Source: Elusimicrobiota bacterium (GTDB lineage: Bacteria > Elusimicrobiota > Elusimicrobia > UBA1565). From it: a DNA stretch of 34,598 nt. The notes under the pieces were generated by a model. That model worked only from the letters and a program-made list of their open reading frames with translations, was not told the DNA's origin and did not search any database. The position numbers and the translations under genes were made by a program. The stretch spans positions 1 to 34,598 of the forward strand of contig JACPXC010000057.1 of assembly GCA_016196755.1 (NCBI GenBank), written 5' to 3'. Shown here piece by piece: positions 6,371 through 26,400 of the stretch. Positions within the stretch are counted from its first letter, which is position 1. Each line of letters opens with the position of its first letter.

Positions 6371-8553
6371 TGGCGAAAGACCCGGTCTGCGGGATGGCCG
6401 TCGACCCCGCCGCTCCTAAGGGCGGCCGGCACGCCTACGCCGGAAAGGACTATTTCTTCTGCAACCCGCGGTGTCGCGAGCGATTCGCCGCGGACCCGGC
6501 AAGCTTCCTTTCCGGCAAGCCCGTCGTGGCGGTCGCGCCGGGCTCCGTCTGGGTATGCCCGATGTGCCCCGGTGTGCGCGGGTTGGAGCCCGGTCCCTGT
6601 CCCTCCTGCGGGATGGCGCTGGAGCCCGAGTTGCCGGGCACGGCCGCCGACCCCGAGACCGCCGACATGCTGCGCCGCTTCGCCGTCTCCGCCGTCCTGA
6701 CTGTCCCGGTCATGGTGCTGGCCATGACGATGCGCGCCCCGGCGGTCCAGGGCTTGCTGGCGTCCCCGGTGGTGCTGTGGGCGGGGGCGCCGTTCTTCGC
6801 GCGGGCCTGGACCTCGCTTAAGACGCGGCGCCTCAACATGTTCACGCTCATCGCGCTGGGCACCGGCACGGCGTACGCGGCCAGCCTGGCGGCGCTGGTC
6901 CTGCCGGGCTCCGTGCCGTCGGCCTTCCTCGATCATCACGGCCGGCCGCCGCTGTACTTCGAGGCGGCCGCGATGATCATCACCTTGGTCTGCCTGGGGC
7001 AGGCCCTCGAGGGGCGCGCCCGCGCGCGGACCCGGGACGCCCTGCGCGCGCTGATGGACTTAGCACCCAAGACCGCGCGGCGCTTGTCGGCGGGGGGGGA
7101 AGCGGACGTGTCCCTGGCCGAGGTGGCGGTAGGCGACCGCCTGCGCGTGCGGCCCGGGGAAGCCGTGCCCGTCGACGGCGAGGTCCTGGAAGGCTCCTCC
7201 TCCGTGGATGAGTCGCTTATGACCGGCGAGTCGGCGCCGGCCGCCAAGGGGCCCGGCGACGCCGTCGTCGGCGGGACGCTCAACGGCTCCGGAGGGTTCG
7301 TCATGCGCGCCGACGCGGTGGGCGCGGAGACGGCGCTGGCGCGCATCGTGGCGCTGGTGGCCGCGGCCCAGCGCAGCCGGGCGCCCATCCAGAGGCTGGC
7401 CGATTCGGTCTCGGCCTGGTTCGTCCCGGCGGTCGTAGCGGCCGCCGCGCTGGCCGCGGCCGGCTGGCTCGCGTGGGGTCCTGCGCCGCGCCTGGCGCAT
7501 GCGCTGGCCGGCGCCGTGGCCGTGCTCATCGTCGCCTGCCCCTGCGCCCTGGGTCTGGCCACGCCGATGTCGGTCATGGTCGGCGTGGGCCGCGGGGCGC
7601 TGGCCGGGGTCCTGGTGCGCGAGGCGGCGGCCCTAGAGGCGTTGGCCGGCGTGGACGTATTGGTCGTCGACAAGACCGGGACCCTGACCGAGGGCCGTCC
7701 GCGTATAGAGGCGGTCGAGCCCGCGGCGGGATTTACGGCCGACGAGGTCCTGCGCCTGGCCGGGACGCTCGAGCGCGCCAGCGAGCATCCGCTGGCCAAG
7801 GCCGTGCTCGAGGCCGCCTCGGCGCGGGGGTTGGACCTGCCCCCCGTCGAGGATTTCCTCTCCGAGCCGGGCCGCGGCGTCCATGGGCGCGTCGCGGGCC
7901 GCGCGGTGTCGGTAGGCCGCCCGAAGACCGACTTGGCCGACAAAGCCGCCCTCGAGGTCTCGGTCGACGGGCGCATGGCGGGCCTGCTGGTGGTCTCCGA
8001 CCCGGTCAAGCCCACGGCCGGCGAGACCGTAGCGGCGCTAGAAGCCGCGGGGCTGCGCATCATCATGGCCACCGGCGACGCTCGGGGTCCGGCGGAATCG
8101 GCGGCCAAGGCGCTGGGGATAGCCGAGGTCCACGCGCGCCTCCTGCCCGCCGAGAAGAGCGCGCTGGTGGCAAAGCTCAAGGCCGGCGGCTCTCGGGTGG
8201 CGATGGCCGGCGACGGCGTCAACGACGCCCCGGCCCTCGCCGCGGCCGACGTCGGCATCGCGATGGGCCTCGGGGCCGACGCCGCGAAGCGCTCGGCAGG
8301 GATCGTTCTGGCCCAGGACGACCTGCGCGGGCTCCTGCGCGCCCGGCGCCTGAGCGTCGCCGTCATGGGCAACATACGCCAGAACCTGTTCTGGGCCTTC
8401 GCCTACAACCTGGCCGCCGTGCCGCTGGCCGCCGGCGTCCTCTACCCCTGGACGGGCTGGCTCCTGGGACCGATGGCGGCGGGGGCGGCGATGAGTCTGA
8501 GTTCGCTGACCGTCGTGCTCAACTCGCTGCGGCTGAGGTCGGTGAAGTTGTGA
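6370..8553 (+). CDS. copA: Copper-exporting P1B-type ATPase with YHS and metal-binding N-terminus
   Basis: Inner-membrane Cu+ efflux pump. In place of ferredoxin-like HMA domains it has a YHS domain ([10 protein letters not shown], residues about 4-45) and a heavy-metal-binding domain with [11 protein letters not shown] (about 60-86). The core has TGES (about 285), the ion site CPC (about 390), phosphorylation site DKTGTLTEG (D434), SEHPLAKA and [10 protein letters not shown] (about 614). The YN in helix 7 and MSLSS in helix 8 mark Cu+ specificity. In the second N-terminal domain the usual CPMHPE reads CPMCPG, a His-to-Cys change. The ATG shares one base with the mfd TGA; an overlapping GTG at 6367 is possible. 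Its place behind mfd looks like operon packing, not shared function. Confidence 0.93.
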
Positions 8554-8560
8554 TCGCTTG

Positions 8561-9049
8561 ATGCCGCTTAGCTTCGAACCCGTCGTCGGGCCTTCGCCCA
8601 AGATCCTGATCCTCGGTTCGATGCCGGGAGTGGAATCCTTGCGTCGCCAGGAGTACTACGGCCATCCGCAGAACCAGTTCTGGCGCCTTTTAGGCGAAGT
8701 CATCGGGACCGACCTACAGTCGTTGAGCTATGCGAAGCGCCTGTCCGTGCTCAAGAAGAAGGGCATAGCGTTATGGGACACCATCAAGGCCTGTGAGCGA
8801 GAGGGCAGCCTAGACAGCGACATCTGTGACGAGGAGCCCAACGAGATCAGCGGCCTCGTCAGAGAGACCGGTGTGCGGGCCGTGTTCCTCAACGGGGGGA
8901 AGGCCCGCCAGATGTTCCTGCGTCACATCGCCGAGGGGCTTTCGACCGAGGTGACGGTCGTCGACCTGCCGTCGAGCAGCCCCGCGGCAGCCTCGATCCC
9001 TTACCCCGAGAAGCTCCGGCGCTGGCGCCGGATAGCCGACTTCCTCTAG
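8561..9049 (+). CDS. Hypoxanthine-DNA glycosylase (UDG family 6)
   Basis: Probably removes deaminated adenine (hypoxanthine) from DNA. The family signature is clear: LILGSMPGVESL, then YYGHPQNQFW carrying the catalytic-type asparagine of motif 1, WDTIKACEREGSLD, FLNGGKA, and LPSSSPA as motif 2. It has 162 residues, normal for the family. The ATG at 8561 is chosen over a TTG one codon earlier. It follows copA after 7 bases and ends the hemA-mfd operon, which puts a second DNA-repair gene beside mfd. Its TAG stop interlocks with the pcm TAG on the other strand in the tetranucleotide CTAG at 9046-9049, leaving no room for a terminator. Confidence 0.85.
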   Translation: MPLSFEPVVGPSPKILILGSMPGVESLRRQEYYGHPQNQFWRLLGEVIGTDLQSLSYAKRLSVLKKKGIALWDTIKACEREGSLDSDICDEEPNEISGLVRETGVRAVFLNGGKARQMFLRHIAEGLSTEVTVVDLPSSSPAAASIPYPEKLRRWRRIADFL

Positions 9050-9618
9050 ACCATCGGCACGAACCGGACCGGCATGAGCTCCTTCGCCTCGAACCCCTTC
9101 GCCGTCTTGGTGTAGAGCCAGAGCACCTGCTCCGAATCGGTCTTCCTCGTCGACCCTACGGGAATCACCAGCCGTCCGCCCTCGCGGAGCTGCTCGATGA
9201 GCGCCGGCGGCAGGGCCTCCGGCGCGCAGGCGGCGATGACGGCGTCGAACGGCGCCGCCTCCGGCCAGCCCCGGGCGCCGTCGCCGACCCGGAAATGGAT
9301 ATTCGAATAGCCCAGCTCCCGCAGCGTCCCCTGAGCCCGGAGCGACAGGTCCTCTAGGATCTCGACGGTGTAGACCTCCCGGGCCAGCTCGCCCAGGACG
9401 GCCGCCTGATACCCCGACCCGGTGCCGACTTCGAGGACCCTGTCGGTGGGACGGAGCTGGAGGGCCTGGGTCATCGCCGCCACGATGAACGGCTGGGAGA
9501 TGGTCTGTCCCTCGCCGATCGAGAGGGCCTTCTCCTCGTAAGCCTGCGCGGCCAGCTTGCGCGGGACGAACCGCTCGCGCGGGACGCGCCTCAGCGCCCC
9601 GAGGACGCGCGGGTCCAT
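9046..9618 (-). CDS. pcm: Protein-L-isoaspartate O-methyltransferase
   Basis: Methylates L-isoaspartyl residues to start repair of aged proteins, using S-adenosylmethionine. Visible motifs are VPRERFVP, GQTISQPFIVAAMTQAL, the SAM-binding motif I VLEVGTGSGYQAAVL, and PVGSTRKT near the end. It has 190 residues; family members usually carry 15-25 more at the N-terminus (a QLxxRGIxD segment), which is missing. The frame is open far upstream, but it runs through a terminator hairpin and antisense to unrelated genes, so the ATG at 9618 is the sensible start. No Shine-Dalgarno is visible. The gene begins about 20 bases after an intrinsic terminator, so it may depend on readthrough. Confidence 0.9.
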   Translation of the reverse strand: MDPRVLGALRRVPRERFVPRKLAAQAYEEKALSIGEGQTISQPFIVAAMTQALQLRPTDRVLEVGTGSGYQAAVLGELAREVYTVEILEDLSLRAQGTLRELGYSNIHFRVGDGARGWPEAAPFDAVIAACAPEALPPALIEQLREGGRLVIPVGSTRKTDSEQVLWLYTKTAKGFEAKELMPVRFVPMV

Positions 9619-9636
9619 CGCGGCGTAGAGCCGGCC

Positions 9637-9675
9637 AAGAAAACGGCCCCGGGAGGCATCCCCCCCGGGGCCGTT
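9637..9675 (-). terminator. Intrinsic terminator of the 15-codon mini-gene
   Basis: A perfect 12-bp stem (9675-9664 with 9653-9642, minus strand AACGGCCCCGGG) encloses a 10-base loop. On the minus strand it runs directly into TTTTCTT (9643-9637). The plus strand has no T run after the stem, so the terminator works only for minus-strand transcription, ending the mini-gene transcript about 20 bases before pcm. It could also act as an attenuator for pcm. Confidence 0.8.
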
Positions 9676-9692
9676 CCGAAGGAAGCTCAAGC

Positions 9693-9740
9693 TCAAGCGG
9701 CGTGCGCCGCCATGGACTGCTTCTTGACGGTATTCTTCAT
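9693..9740 (-). CDS. 15-residue peptide mini-gene, unknown function
   Basis: This short reading frame encodes MKNTVKKQSMAAHAA. Although tiny, it has the full set of gene signals on the minus strand: a sigma70-like promoter (TTGCCA, 18 bp, TAGGAT), a GGAGGT Shine-Dalgarno 3 bases before ATG, and a strong intrinsic terminator 17 bases after the stop. The Shine-Dalgarno is the loop of a palindrome ATCAC-GGAGGT-GTGAT whose second arm covers the start of the ATG. The peptide is basic at its N-terminus and ends in small residues; it is not enriched in any one amino acid, as a classical attenuator leader would be. It may be a small peptide, a leader controlling pcm, or a small RNA with a decoy frame. 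I do not recognise it. Confidence 0.5.
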   Translation of the reverse strand: MKNTVKKQSMAAHAA

Positions 9741-9754
9741 CACACCTCCGTGAT
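9739..9754 (-). promoter_or_regulatory. Palindrome presenting a Shine-Dalgarno in its loop
   Basis: The minus strand reads ATCACGGAGGTGTGAT. The arms ATCAC and GTGAT can pair with the whole GGAGGT in a 6-base loop, and the first two bases of the ATG are in the stem. This could regulate initiation on the mini-gene, or be a protein-binding site. Confidence 0.5.
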
Positions 9755-9769
9755 TTGGCCCGGCGCGGC

Positions 9770-9799
9770 ATCCTAGCTTGGGCGGGAGGCGGTTGGCAA
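9770..9799 (-). promoter_or_regulatory. Sigma70-like promoter of the mini-gene
   Basis: On the minus strand, TTGCCA (9799-9794) is followed by an 18-base spacer and TAGGAT (9775-9770). The predicted start near 9763 gives a leader of about 22 bases to the mini-gene ATG. Confidence 0.6.
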
Positions 9800-9839
9800 C
9801 AGAGGGGGTTTGAACGAAGCGTCAGGGATAGGCGACCGC

Positions 9840-11099
9840 TCAGGCGGTCCCAGGGCAGAGCGTCGGGACAGGGAACTCGGCGACGAAGCGCGCCCCGCCT
9901 TCCGACCGATTCTCGGCCCAGAGGCTGCCCCCGTATCGAAGCAGCGTCCTCTTGCTGGCCGCCAAGCCCAGGCCCGTCCCTTCGCGCTTTCCCGAGCGGC
10001 CGGCCTCGCCTAGTTGAAATCCCGGCGGCAGGCCGGGGCCGTCGTCTTCGACCACGCAGCGCACCGAGAAAGGCCGACCCGTTCCGTCTTTGACGAGCTC
10101 GGCCGAGGCGAGGATGCGCCCGCCGGGGCTCATGGCCTCGGCCGCGTTCTTGATTAGGTTCATGAAGACTCGTTCGACGGATATCGGGTCGACCGGCACG
10201 GACGGCAGCCCTCCAGCGACGACGACTTGGAGCGATAGGCGCCTGGAGCGCGTCTCGGCGCCGCAAAGCTGAGCGGCCTCGGTGAGCACGTCTCCTATGT
10301 CCGTGGGCACGGCCCCCGGAGGGGTCTTCCGGTATTGGTCGAGGGCCTGGACGAGGATATGCTCGGCTAGCCGCGCGGCCCTGCGGATGCGTTCGAGGTG
10401 GCTGTCCAGGGCCGAGGGGGAGTCCAGGCGGACGAGGTCCACGCTGGACTGTATGACGGTCAGAGGCGTGCGGATGTCGTGGATGATGCCGCCCACGTCG
10501 ACGCTGGCTCCGCTCAAGCGCTCGGCGTCGGCCAGACGCGCTTCTTGGACGCTCAGGGAGGCCTCCAGCGTTAGGAGGTCGGCGTGGTGGCGCGAGGCCG
10601 CCTCCCGGTGACGGCTCTCCCGGCGCATCACATGGGCGACCGAAGCGGCGGTCAGCGCCAGGACGATGGATTTGACGGCCGCGGCGAAGACCAGGACTTC
10701 TCGAGCCTCGTCGGTCGCCAGCCAGAGCGGCAAGACGCAGAACCCCACGGTGCCGGCCAGGACCAGCACGAGATGGCGCTCGTTGAGCCTCATCCCCGCG
10801 GAGTATATCGGGAGCAGGTAGAGCACCCACAATAGCGAGCGCTCCGCGCCCGATTTCTCCACGAGGCCGGCCACGACGGCGGCGCTGGCCATCGTGAAGA
10901 GGGCCGATATGGTGGGACGCTCGGGCCGGCGCCGCAGGATGACGGCGGAGGCCAGGAGCAGACCCAGGAGGATGATGATCAGATAGAGGATATCGGGGAA
11001 GACCAGGTCCGGGTTCCCGCGCGACAGGTAGACGAGGACGGCCAGTGCGACGCAGGCCATGGACTGGTGGTGCTGCTGCTGCCTTGCTAGTGCTTTCAT
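9840..11099 (-). CDS. Membrane sensor histidine kinase (orphan)
   Basis: Membrane sensor that autophosphorylates and would pass phosphate to a response regulator. The N-terminal 160 residues form about five or six hydrophobic helices with little periplasmic loop, suggesting membrane or intracellular sensing. A charged helical linker leads to the phosphoacceptor H-box GGIIHDIRTPLTVI (H207). The ATPase domain has N-box NLIKNAAEAMS (about 318), VEDDGPGLPPG (about 355) and GTGLGLAASKR (about 381). At 419 residues it looks complete. No response regulator is adjacent or in the window. It is divergent from the envelope operon, and phased OmpR/PhoB-like repeats lie just upstream of it, so autoregulation by a partner regulator is plausible. 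Confidence 0.88.
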   Translation of the reverse strand: MKALARQQQHHQSMACVALAVLVYLSRGNPDLVFPDILYLIIILLGLLLASAVILRRRPERPTISALFTMASAAVVAGLVEKSGAERSLLWVLYLLPIYSAGMRLNERHLVLVLAGTVGFCVLPLWLATDEAREVLVFAAAVKSIVLALTAASVAHVMRRESRHREAASRHHADLLTLEASLSVQEARLADAERLSGASVDVGGIIHDIRTPLTVIQSSVDLVRLDSPSALDSHLERIRRAARLAEHILVQALDQYRKTPPGAVPTDIGDVLTEAAQLCGAETRSRRLSLQVVVAGGLPSVPVDPISVERVFMNLIKNAAEAMSPGGRILASAELVKDGTGRPFSVRCVVEDDGPGLPPGFQLGEAGRSGKREGTGLGLAASKRTLLRYGGSLWAENRSEGGARFVAEFPVPTLCPGTA

Positions 11100-11115
11100 G
11101 CCTCCAAGATGGGGG

Positions 11116-11159
11116 ATTGAACTCTCGCCGGGCTCACACGAGCCTCAACCGGGGCTCAA
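11116..11159. promoter_or_regulatory. Phased 11-bp direct repeats, OmpR/PhoB-type operator candidate
   Basis: Three 7-mers with 4-base spacers repeat on the plus strand: GGCTCAC (11131-11137), GCCTCAA (11142-11148) and GGCTCAA (11153-11159). Their CTCA cores begin at 11133, 11144 and 11155, exactly 11 bases apart; a degenerate fourth, CTCT, begins at 11122. Seven-base direct repeats with 4-base gaps are the known site layout of OmpR/PhoB-family regulators. On the minus strand a -10-like TTCAAT (11121-11116) lies 9 bases beyond the repeats, so they would occupy the -35 region of the histidine kinase promoter. Confidence 0.5.
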
Positions 11160-11213
11160 CAATCGCGGAGCCGCCGCCTAGCCGGAAAGGCGGGCAGATT
11201 GATACAGTTGCTC

Positions 11214-25563: not shown

Positions 25564-26400
25564 ATGGGTCGCCAACCTCGGTTGCACTTTCCCGGTGCCA
25601 TCTTCCACGTGATGAGCCGTGGCAATGGAGGTCAAATGGTCTTCTTGAGCGACGCCGATCGCCTGTACTTTCTCTGCGTCCTCCATGATGTCCTGGTGAA
25701 GACCGGCGCTCGGCTCCTGGCCTATTGCCTGATGGGAAACCATTATCACCTGTTGATTCGGGCGCTGGAAGTCTCGATTTCTGAGATTATGCAGAGGGTG
25801 CTGACCCGCTACGCTAAACATTCGAATTTTGTCGCTGAACGCGAGGGTCATGTATTCCAAGCCCGCTTCTTGGCGAAACTCTGCCATGACGATGCCTATC
25901 TCATTGCGGCATTGCGGTACATCCATCGCAATCCAGTGGACGCCAATCTCTGTGAGGGGCTGTCGGATTGGCCATGGAGCAGTCATCGGCAATTCGTGGG
26001 CCCGATTCATTCTACGGCCCTCGACATTGACACTGTTTTAGCGAAGCTAGGACCGACCAGAGCTCAGGCCTTGGGCCGCTACGCGCAATTGATGGAGGAG
26101 CCTGCAGACTTGGAATTGCCGGAGTTCGATGTGCCGGTCTTGCGGTCTGGCGCTCCCCCGGCCCATTCGGACCGGCCAAGCCTGGAGCTTCTGGGAGGAG
26201 AGGTATTTTCTCGGACCAGTATCGAGATCAGAGGCTTGAGCGGGAAGGTCCGCACCGCGGCGATATCTCGGGCGCGGTCGTTATTCTGCGAGATGGCAGC
26301 TCAGAACGGATACGGCGTCTCTGAAATAGCCGGATTCTTGGGCCTGGCCCCGAGCAGCGTGCACGAACGCATCGGCGAAATCTGGCGTTTTCCCGCTTAG
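25564..26400 (+). CDS. REP-associated tyrosine transposase (RAYT, Y1/HUH type)
   Basis: Single-strand DNA transposase-like nuclease that acts on REP hairpins. The Y1 domain starts PRLHFPGAIFHVMSRGNGG and has the metal-binding HUH motif LMGNHYHLLI (H60, H62) and the nucleophile in ALRYIHRNPV (Y119); RYAKHSNFVAEREGHVFQARF lies between. A C-terminal extension (about 225-278) ends in a helix-turn-helix-like stretch, YGVSEIAGFLGLAPSSVHERI, that may bind DNA. It has 278 residues and looks intact. A TATA-rich stretch (25553-25560) just before the ATG may hold a promoter, with no clear -35. GC content is below that of its neighbours. Its TAG stop interlocks with the xseB stop on the opposite strand. 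Confidence 0.9.
   Translation: MGRQPRLHFPGAIFHVMSRGNGGQMVFLSDADRLYFLCVLHDVLVKTGARLLAYCLMGNHYHLLIRALEVSISEIMQRVLTRYAKHSNFVAEREGHVFQARFLAKLCHDDAYLIAALRYIHRNPVDANLCEGLSDWPWSSHRQFVGPIHSTALDIDTVLAKLGPTRAQALGRYAQLMEEPADLELPEFDVPVLRSGAPPAHSDRPSLELLGGEVFSRTSIEIRGLSGKVRTAAISRARSLFCEMAAQNGYGVSEIAGFLGLAPSSVHERIGEIWRFPA

Follow-up and report, generated by a model that had tools for sequence, protein, structure and literature searches.

The minus strand of positions 9799-9637 in the window, by which we mean the whole 34,598-nucleotide stretch of Elusimicrobiota DNA that was analyzed, carries what is probably a genuine, orphan small transcription unit. Inspection of the sequence reveals a promoter-like site, a GGAGGT, a 15-codon open reading frame (ORF) and a terminator, in that order. 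The putative sigma-70-like promoter, TTGCCA-18-TAGGAT, spans 9770-9799, with its -35 element (TTGCCA) at 9799-9794 and its -10 element (TAGGAT) at 9775-9770. The Shine-Dalgarno (SD) sequence GGAGGT lies at 9744-9749, and the ORF, MKNTVKKQSMAAHAA, occupies 9693-9740, running from an ATG at 9740 to a TGA at 9695-9693. Two codons past this stop, at 9689-9687, lies another in-frame TGA, which gives the frame tandem stops. The unit ends in an intrinsic terminator at 9637-9677, which consists of a hairpin at 9677-9640 and the T run TTTTCTT, ending at 9637. A first-pass annotation of the window had named the promoter-like site, the SD sequence, the 15-codon frame and the terminator on the minus strand, and all of them are present. 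The terminator hairpin and T run that it described likewise stand, but its 12-bp stem does not, as folding gives a stem of 15-17 bp.

Two genes on the same strand flank the unit. Upstream is an ORF that we identify from its sequence as a histidine kinase gene (9840-11099). Downstream is pcm, which encodes a protein-L-isoaspartate methyltransferase (9046-9618; PCMT profile match, E 5e-57) and is truncated at its 5' end.

Chance expectation, terminator placement and coding evidence

The promoter-like match at 9770-9799 is the only one on either strand of positions 8400-11200 (2.8 kb), where 0.1 would be expected, and the exact TTGCCA-18-TAGGAT motif occurs twice in 4.59 Mb. The frequency with which such elements come together by chance was estimated by scanning both strands of stretches of the same genome amounting to 1.23 Mb. 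These stretches contain 438 short ORFs with an SD sequence, only one of which has a promoter of at least 9/12, and that one is the unit at 9637-9799. A terminator of at least 9 bp lies within 60 nt of two of the 438, namely the same unit and an ORF that proved, on reading its sequence, to be the in-frame C-terminus of GroEL, and which we therefore rejected as an independent short gene. The probability that a strong-SD short ORF ends 0-25 nt upstream of a random position is 0.0013, and no comparable unit arose in order-1 simulated sequence (3 x 435 kb). These figures are descriptive, since the thresholds were chosen after the unit was seen; the margin is large nonetheless. The 1.23-Mb scan and the order-1 simulations support the first-pass view that so tidy a set of elements is beyond chance. 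The unit thus has what would be expected of a small-protein gene: a promoter, an SD sequence, an ORF and a terminator, in order and in a combination that exceeds chance.

The terminator hairpin has a folding energy of -36.5 kcal/mol and is far more stable than shuffled sequences (z -5.4). A motif scan with preset rules named no terminator here, which we attribute to the stem and tail rules of that scan, since both folding and a separate terminator search detect the hairpin. Strong intrinsic terminators are rare in this genome, with ten having a stem of at least 15 bp in 1.23 Mb, and those that we inspected lie 0-33 nt after the stops of real genes, groEL included. Here, the terminator begins 15 nt past the short ORF's own stop but 162 nt past that of the histidine kinase gene. 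Given the 0-33 nt seen at the terminators inspected, it suits the 15-codon ORF better than the kinase. We consider the unit probably real because its ORF is the only short SD ORF in 1.23 Mb with a 9/12 promoter, and the only genuine one with a strong terminator behind it, and because the rare strong terminators that we inspected are placed after the stops of true genes.

The start context of the ORF, GGAGGTGTGATGAA, and its one-mismatch variants are found in the family mostly before ordinary long genes. Measured against the genes of the genome, codon use is best in the ORF frame (0.59 bits/codon vs -1.58 and -0.47), and a codon-choice test for MKNTVKKQSMAAHAA gives a p of about 0.08, which is weak taken alone. 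The predicted peptide of 15 residues is basic and hydrophilic. If the unit is real, a peptide gene is somewhat more likely than not; the earlier suggestion that it could be either a peptide gene or a small RNA is supported.

Our preferred explanation, which we hold with about even confidence, is that of a stand-alone, lineage-specific small transcription unit. RNA polymerase would start near 9763 and produce an RNA of about 125 nt ending at the T run at 9637, and ribosomes would translate the 15-residue peptide from the ATG at 9740. The terminator would stop the RNA of the unit, along with any transcription that reads through from the histidine kinase gene, and would so insulate pcm. As for its role, we think it most likely a small mRNA of recent origin, which may also act in trans as an RNA. 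In favor of a stand-alone unit, we count the co-occurrence of the elements, the terminator spacing, the ordinary start context, the codon use in the ORF frame and the tandem stops. Against it, we count the weakness of the codon evidence when taken alone and the lack of any peptide or DNA homologue in the genomes searched.

Conservation and RNA folding

At the DNA level, a search of 37 relatives gives no homologue of the unit, and its own genome contains no second copy, which led us to reject a repeat element or multi-copy family. None of 294 other phylum genomes has a fully degenerate match to the first eight codons, and a looser peptide pattern allowing one mismatch, run on 55 other genomes of the order, hits just two places, both unrelated; such start-based pattern searches would miss a peptide conserved chiefly in its C-terminal half. 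In 85,000 species genomes and a viral collection, only unrelated ORFs share the first eight codons. The exact MKNTVKKQ starts found elsewhere belong to ORFs of 8 to 395 codons with unmatched context, their number is within the chance range, and we rejected them as relatives of the peptide. In a same-genus genome, no such unit follows the orthologue of the histidine kinase gene, and a literature search found nothing on the 9637-9799 unit. The nearest genomes compared are at the level of the genus, with pcm 66-68% identical.

The unit is thus an orphan among the phylum genomes compared. The first-pass annotation had named a lack of conservation of the peptide, palindrome or terminator in close relatives as evidence against the unit, and this comparison did turn up no conservation. 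Because the nearest genomes are only genus-level, their lack of the unit marks it as an orphan and does not refute it. Likewise, since orphan small genes exist, non-conservation of the peptide lowers the case for membership among small genes without excluding it.

A non-conserved ORF (294 genomes of the phylum and 55 of the order) is also what would be expected of a small RNA that is non-coding and whose short frame is incidental, whether the RNA acts itself or is a processed 3' end of the kinase mRNA. The unit is strongest in its promoter and terminator, which accords with this explanation, and the whole RNA folds better than its shuffles (z -3.5). However, the 86 nt upstream of the terminator fold in an ordinary way (z -0.8), which indicates that most of the excess in the whole RNA is due to the terminator. 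In addition, no Rfam family matches the unit at the gathering score, and an RNA of this kind would leave the strong SD sequence, its good spacing, the tandem stops and the favorable frame unexplained. We consider a non-coding RNA rather unlikely, though likelier than the other alternatives.

The first-pass annotation had also drawn attention to a palindrome, ATCAC-GGAGGT-GTGAT, with the SD sequence as its loop. This hairpin (9739-9754) is present and probably incidental. Its folding energy on its own is -4.9 kcal/mol, and it is seen in a short fold and in a 132-nt fold but is lost in 86-nt and 127-nt folds. Similar inverted repeats cover the SD sequence at 8 of 194 GGAGG-N3-7-ATG sites (about 4%), and so the palindrome is not notable. 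Given its frequency and its loss from some folds, we rejected it as a regulatory device.

Truncation of pcm and possible attenuation

The match of the PCMT profile to pcm starts at profile position 17 and the NCBIfam matches start at 21-24, both at the ATG at 9618; the first 16-23 residues of the family profiles are therefore missing from pcm. In nearly all relatives, pcm homologues have an extension before DxRVL that is mostly signal-peptide-like, and none is present in this pcm, which is the only copy found in the genome. Neither a promoter nor an SD sequence is visible before the ATG at 9618. The first-pass annotation, in raising attenuation as one possibility, was right that pcm has no visible ribosome site; we ascribe this to the missing 5' end. 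A TTG in the pcm frame (9696-9694) overlaps the stop of the small ORF (TTGA), and the pcm frame is open through the terminator hairpin. We rejected an upstream extension of pcm to this TTG, because the PCMT profiles begin at the ATG and none of the added sequence matches them.

In several relatives, as judged by eye, only about 6-20 nt separate the ATG of pcm from a box resembling TATCCT, TAGAAT or TATCAT. Boxes so near the ATG hint that pcm transcripts in those genomes have very short 5' UTRs or are leaderless. On the other side of pcm, a uracil-DNA-glycosylase-like gene on the plus strand (8558-9049) converges with it, the two overlapping by 4 bases (9046-9049). Elsewhere in the window, a plus-strand ORF at 25564-26400 resembles a REP-associated (Y1-type) transposase by sequence.

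The anatomy of the locus is that of an attenuator, with a leader ORF, an intrinsic terminator and then a gene. Translation of the 15 codons as a leader peptide might accordingly tune read-through of the terminator into pcm; attenuation of pcm was one of the options raised in the first-pass annotation. The order of promoter, short ORF, terminator and gene fits, pcm starts 18 nt past the T run without a visible promoter of its own, and the overlapping TTG would allow coupling. However, when folding is barred from using the 3' arm of the terminator, its 5' arm pairs instead with the start of the leader in a duplex of -16.5 kcal/mol, compared with a mean of -19.2 kcal/mol for shuffled leaders, and 80% of the shuffles are equal or better. 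Thus, no antiterminator pairing better than that of shuffled leaders was found, and no codon run was seen in MKNTVKKQSMAAHAA, which may still contain a stall motif. The stretches upstream of pcm in the relatives have other starts, with no such arrangement noted, and this pcm, besides being truncated, has unrelated contexts in the relatives. Attenuation of pcm is possible on anatomy, unsupported by the evidence and unlikely.

Quite improbable is a rearrangement or draft mis-join that left the two ends, 5' and 3', of an otherwise lost gene before a 5'-less pcm: the N-terminus of pcm, present in nearly all relatives, is missing exactly at the unit, the synteny around pcm is kept in none of the relatives tested and the genome is a 67-contig draft, but the elements of the unit are all whole and suitably spaced, and neither a second copy nor a source gene with the same start is found in the genome or its relatives.

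Known systems and meaning

As general classes, both independent small ORFs and leader peptides are familiar. Leader-peptide attenuators of the trp/his operon type combine a short ORF, a strong SD sequence, an intrinsic terminator and a gene on the same strand. The unit has these parts in the same arrangement but differs in that neither a significant antiterminator nor a codon run was seen, and in that pcm is truncated and not conserved in place. Dual-function small RNAs of the SgrS type are short RNAs that contain a small ORF and end in an intrinsic terminator, as the RNA of the unit would; unlike them, the unit has no known target, conservation or Rfam match. Macrolide-inducible leader peptides upstream of mef/mel (PMC4335068) and msrD (PMC10314930) belong with the leader-peptide attenuators, and the unit resembles and differs from them in the same ways. 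Independent bacterial small-protein (sORF) genes, mostly of unknown function, have been detected by Ribo-seq (PMC11955535). Like these sORF genes, the unit has a promoter, SD sequence, short frame and terminator of its own, but its 15 residues are at the low end and it has no homologue.

A stand-alone gene of some 15 codons is difficult to recognize and seldom annotated. The stand-alone unit that we favor is well delimited and is therefore testable with one RNA-seq or Ribo-seq data set. For now, it ranks as an ordinary orphan. In its fullest form, our explanation would make it a functional 15-codon gene with its own transcription unit, new in one lineage and arriving together with the 5' truncation and insulation of pcm, a combination to which we attach a low likelihood. 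Absence from relatives would make the unit a candidate de novo small gene.
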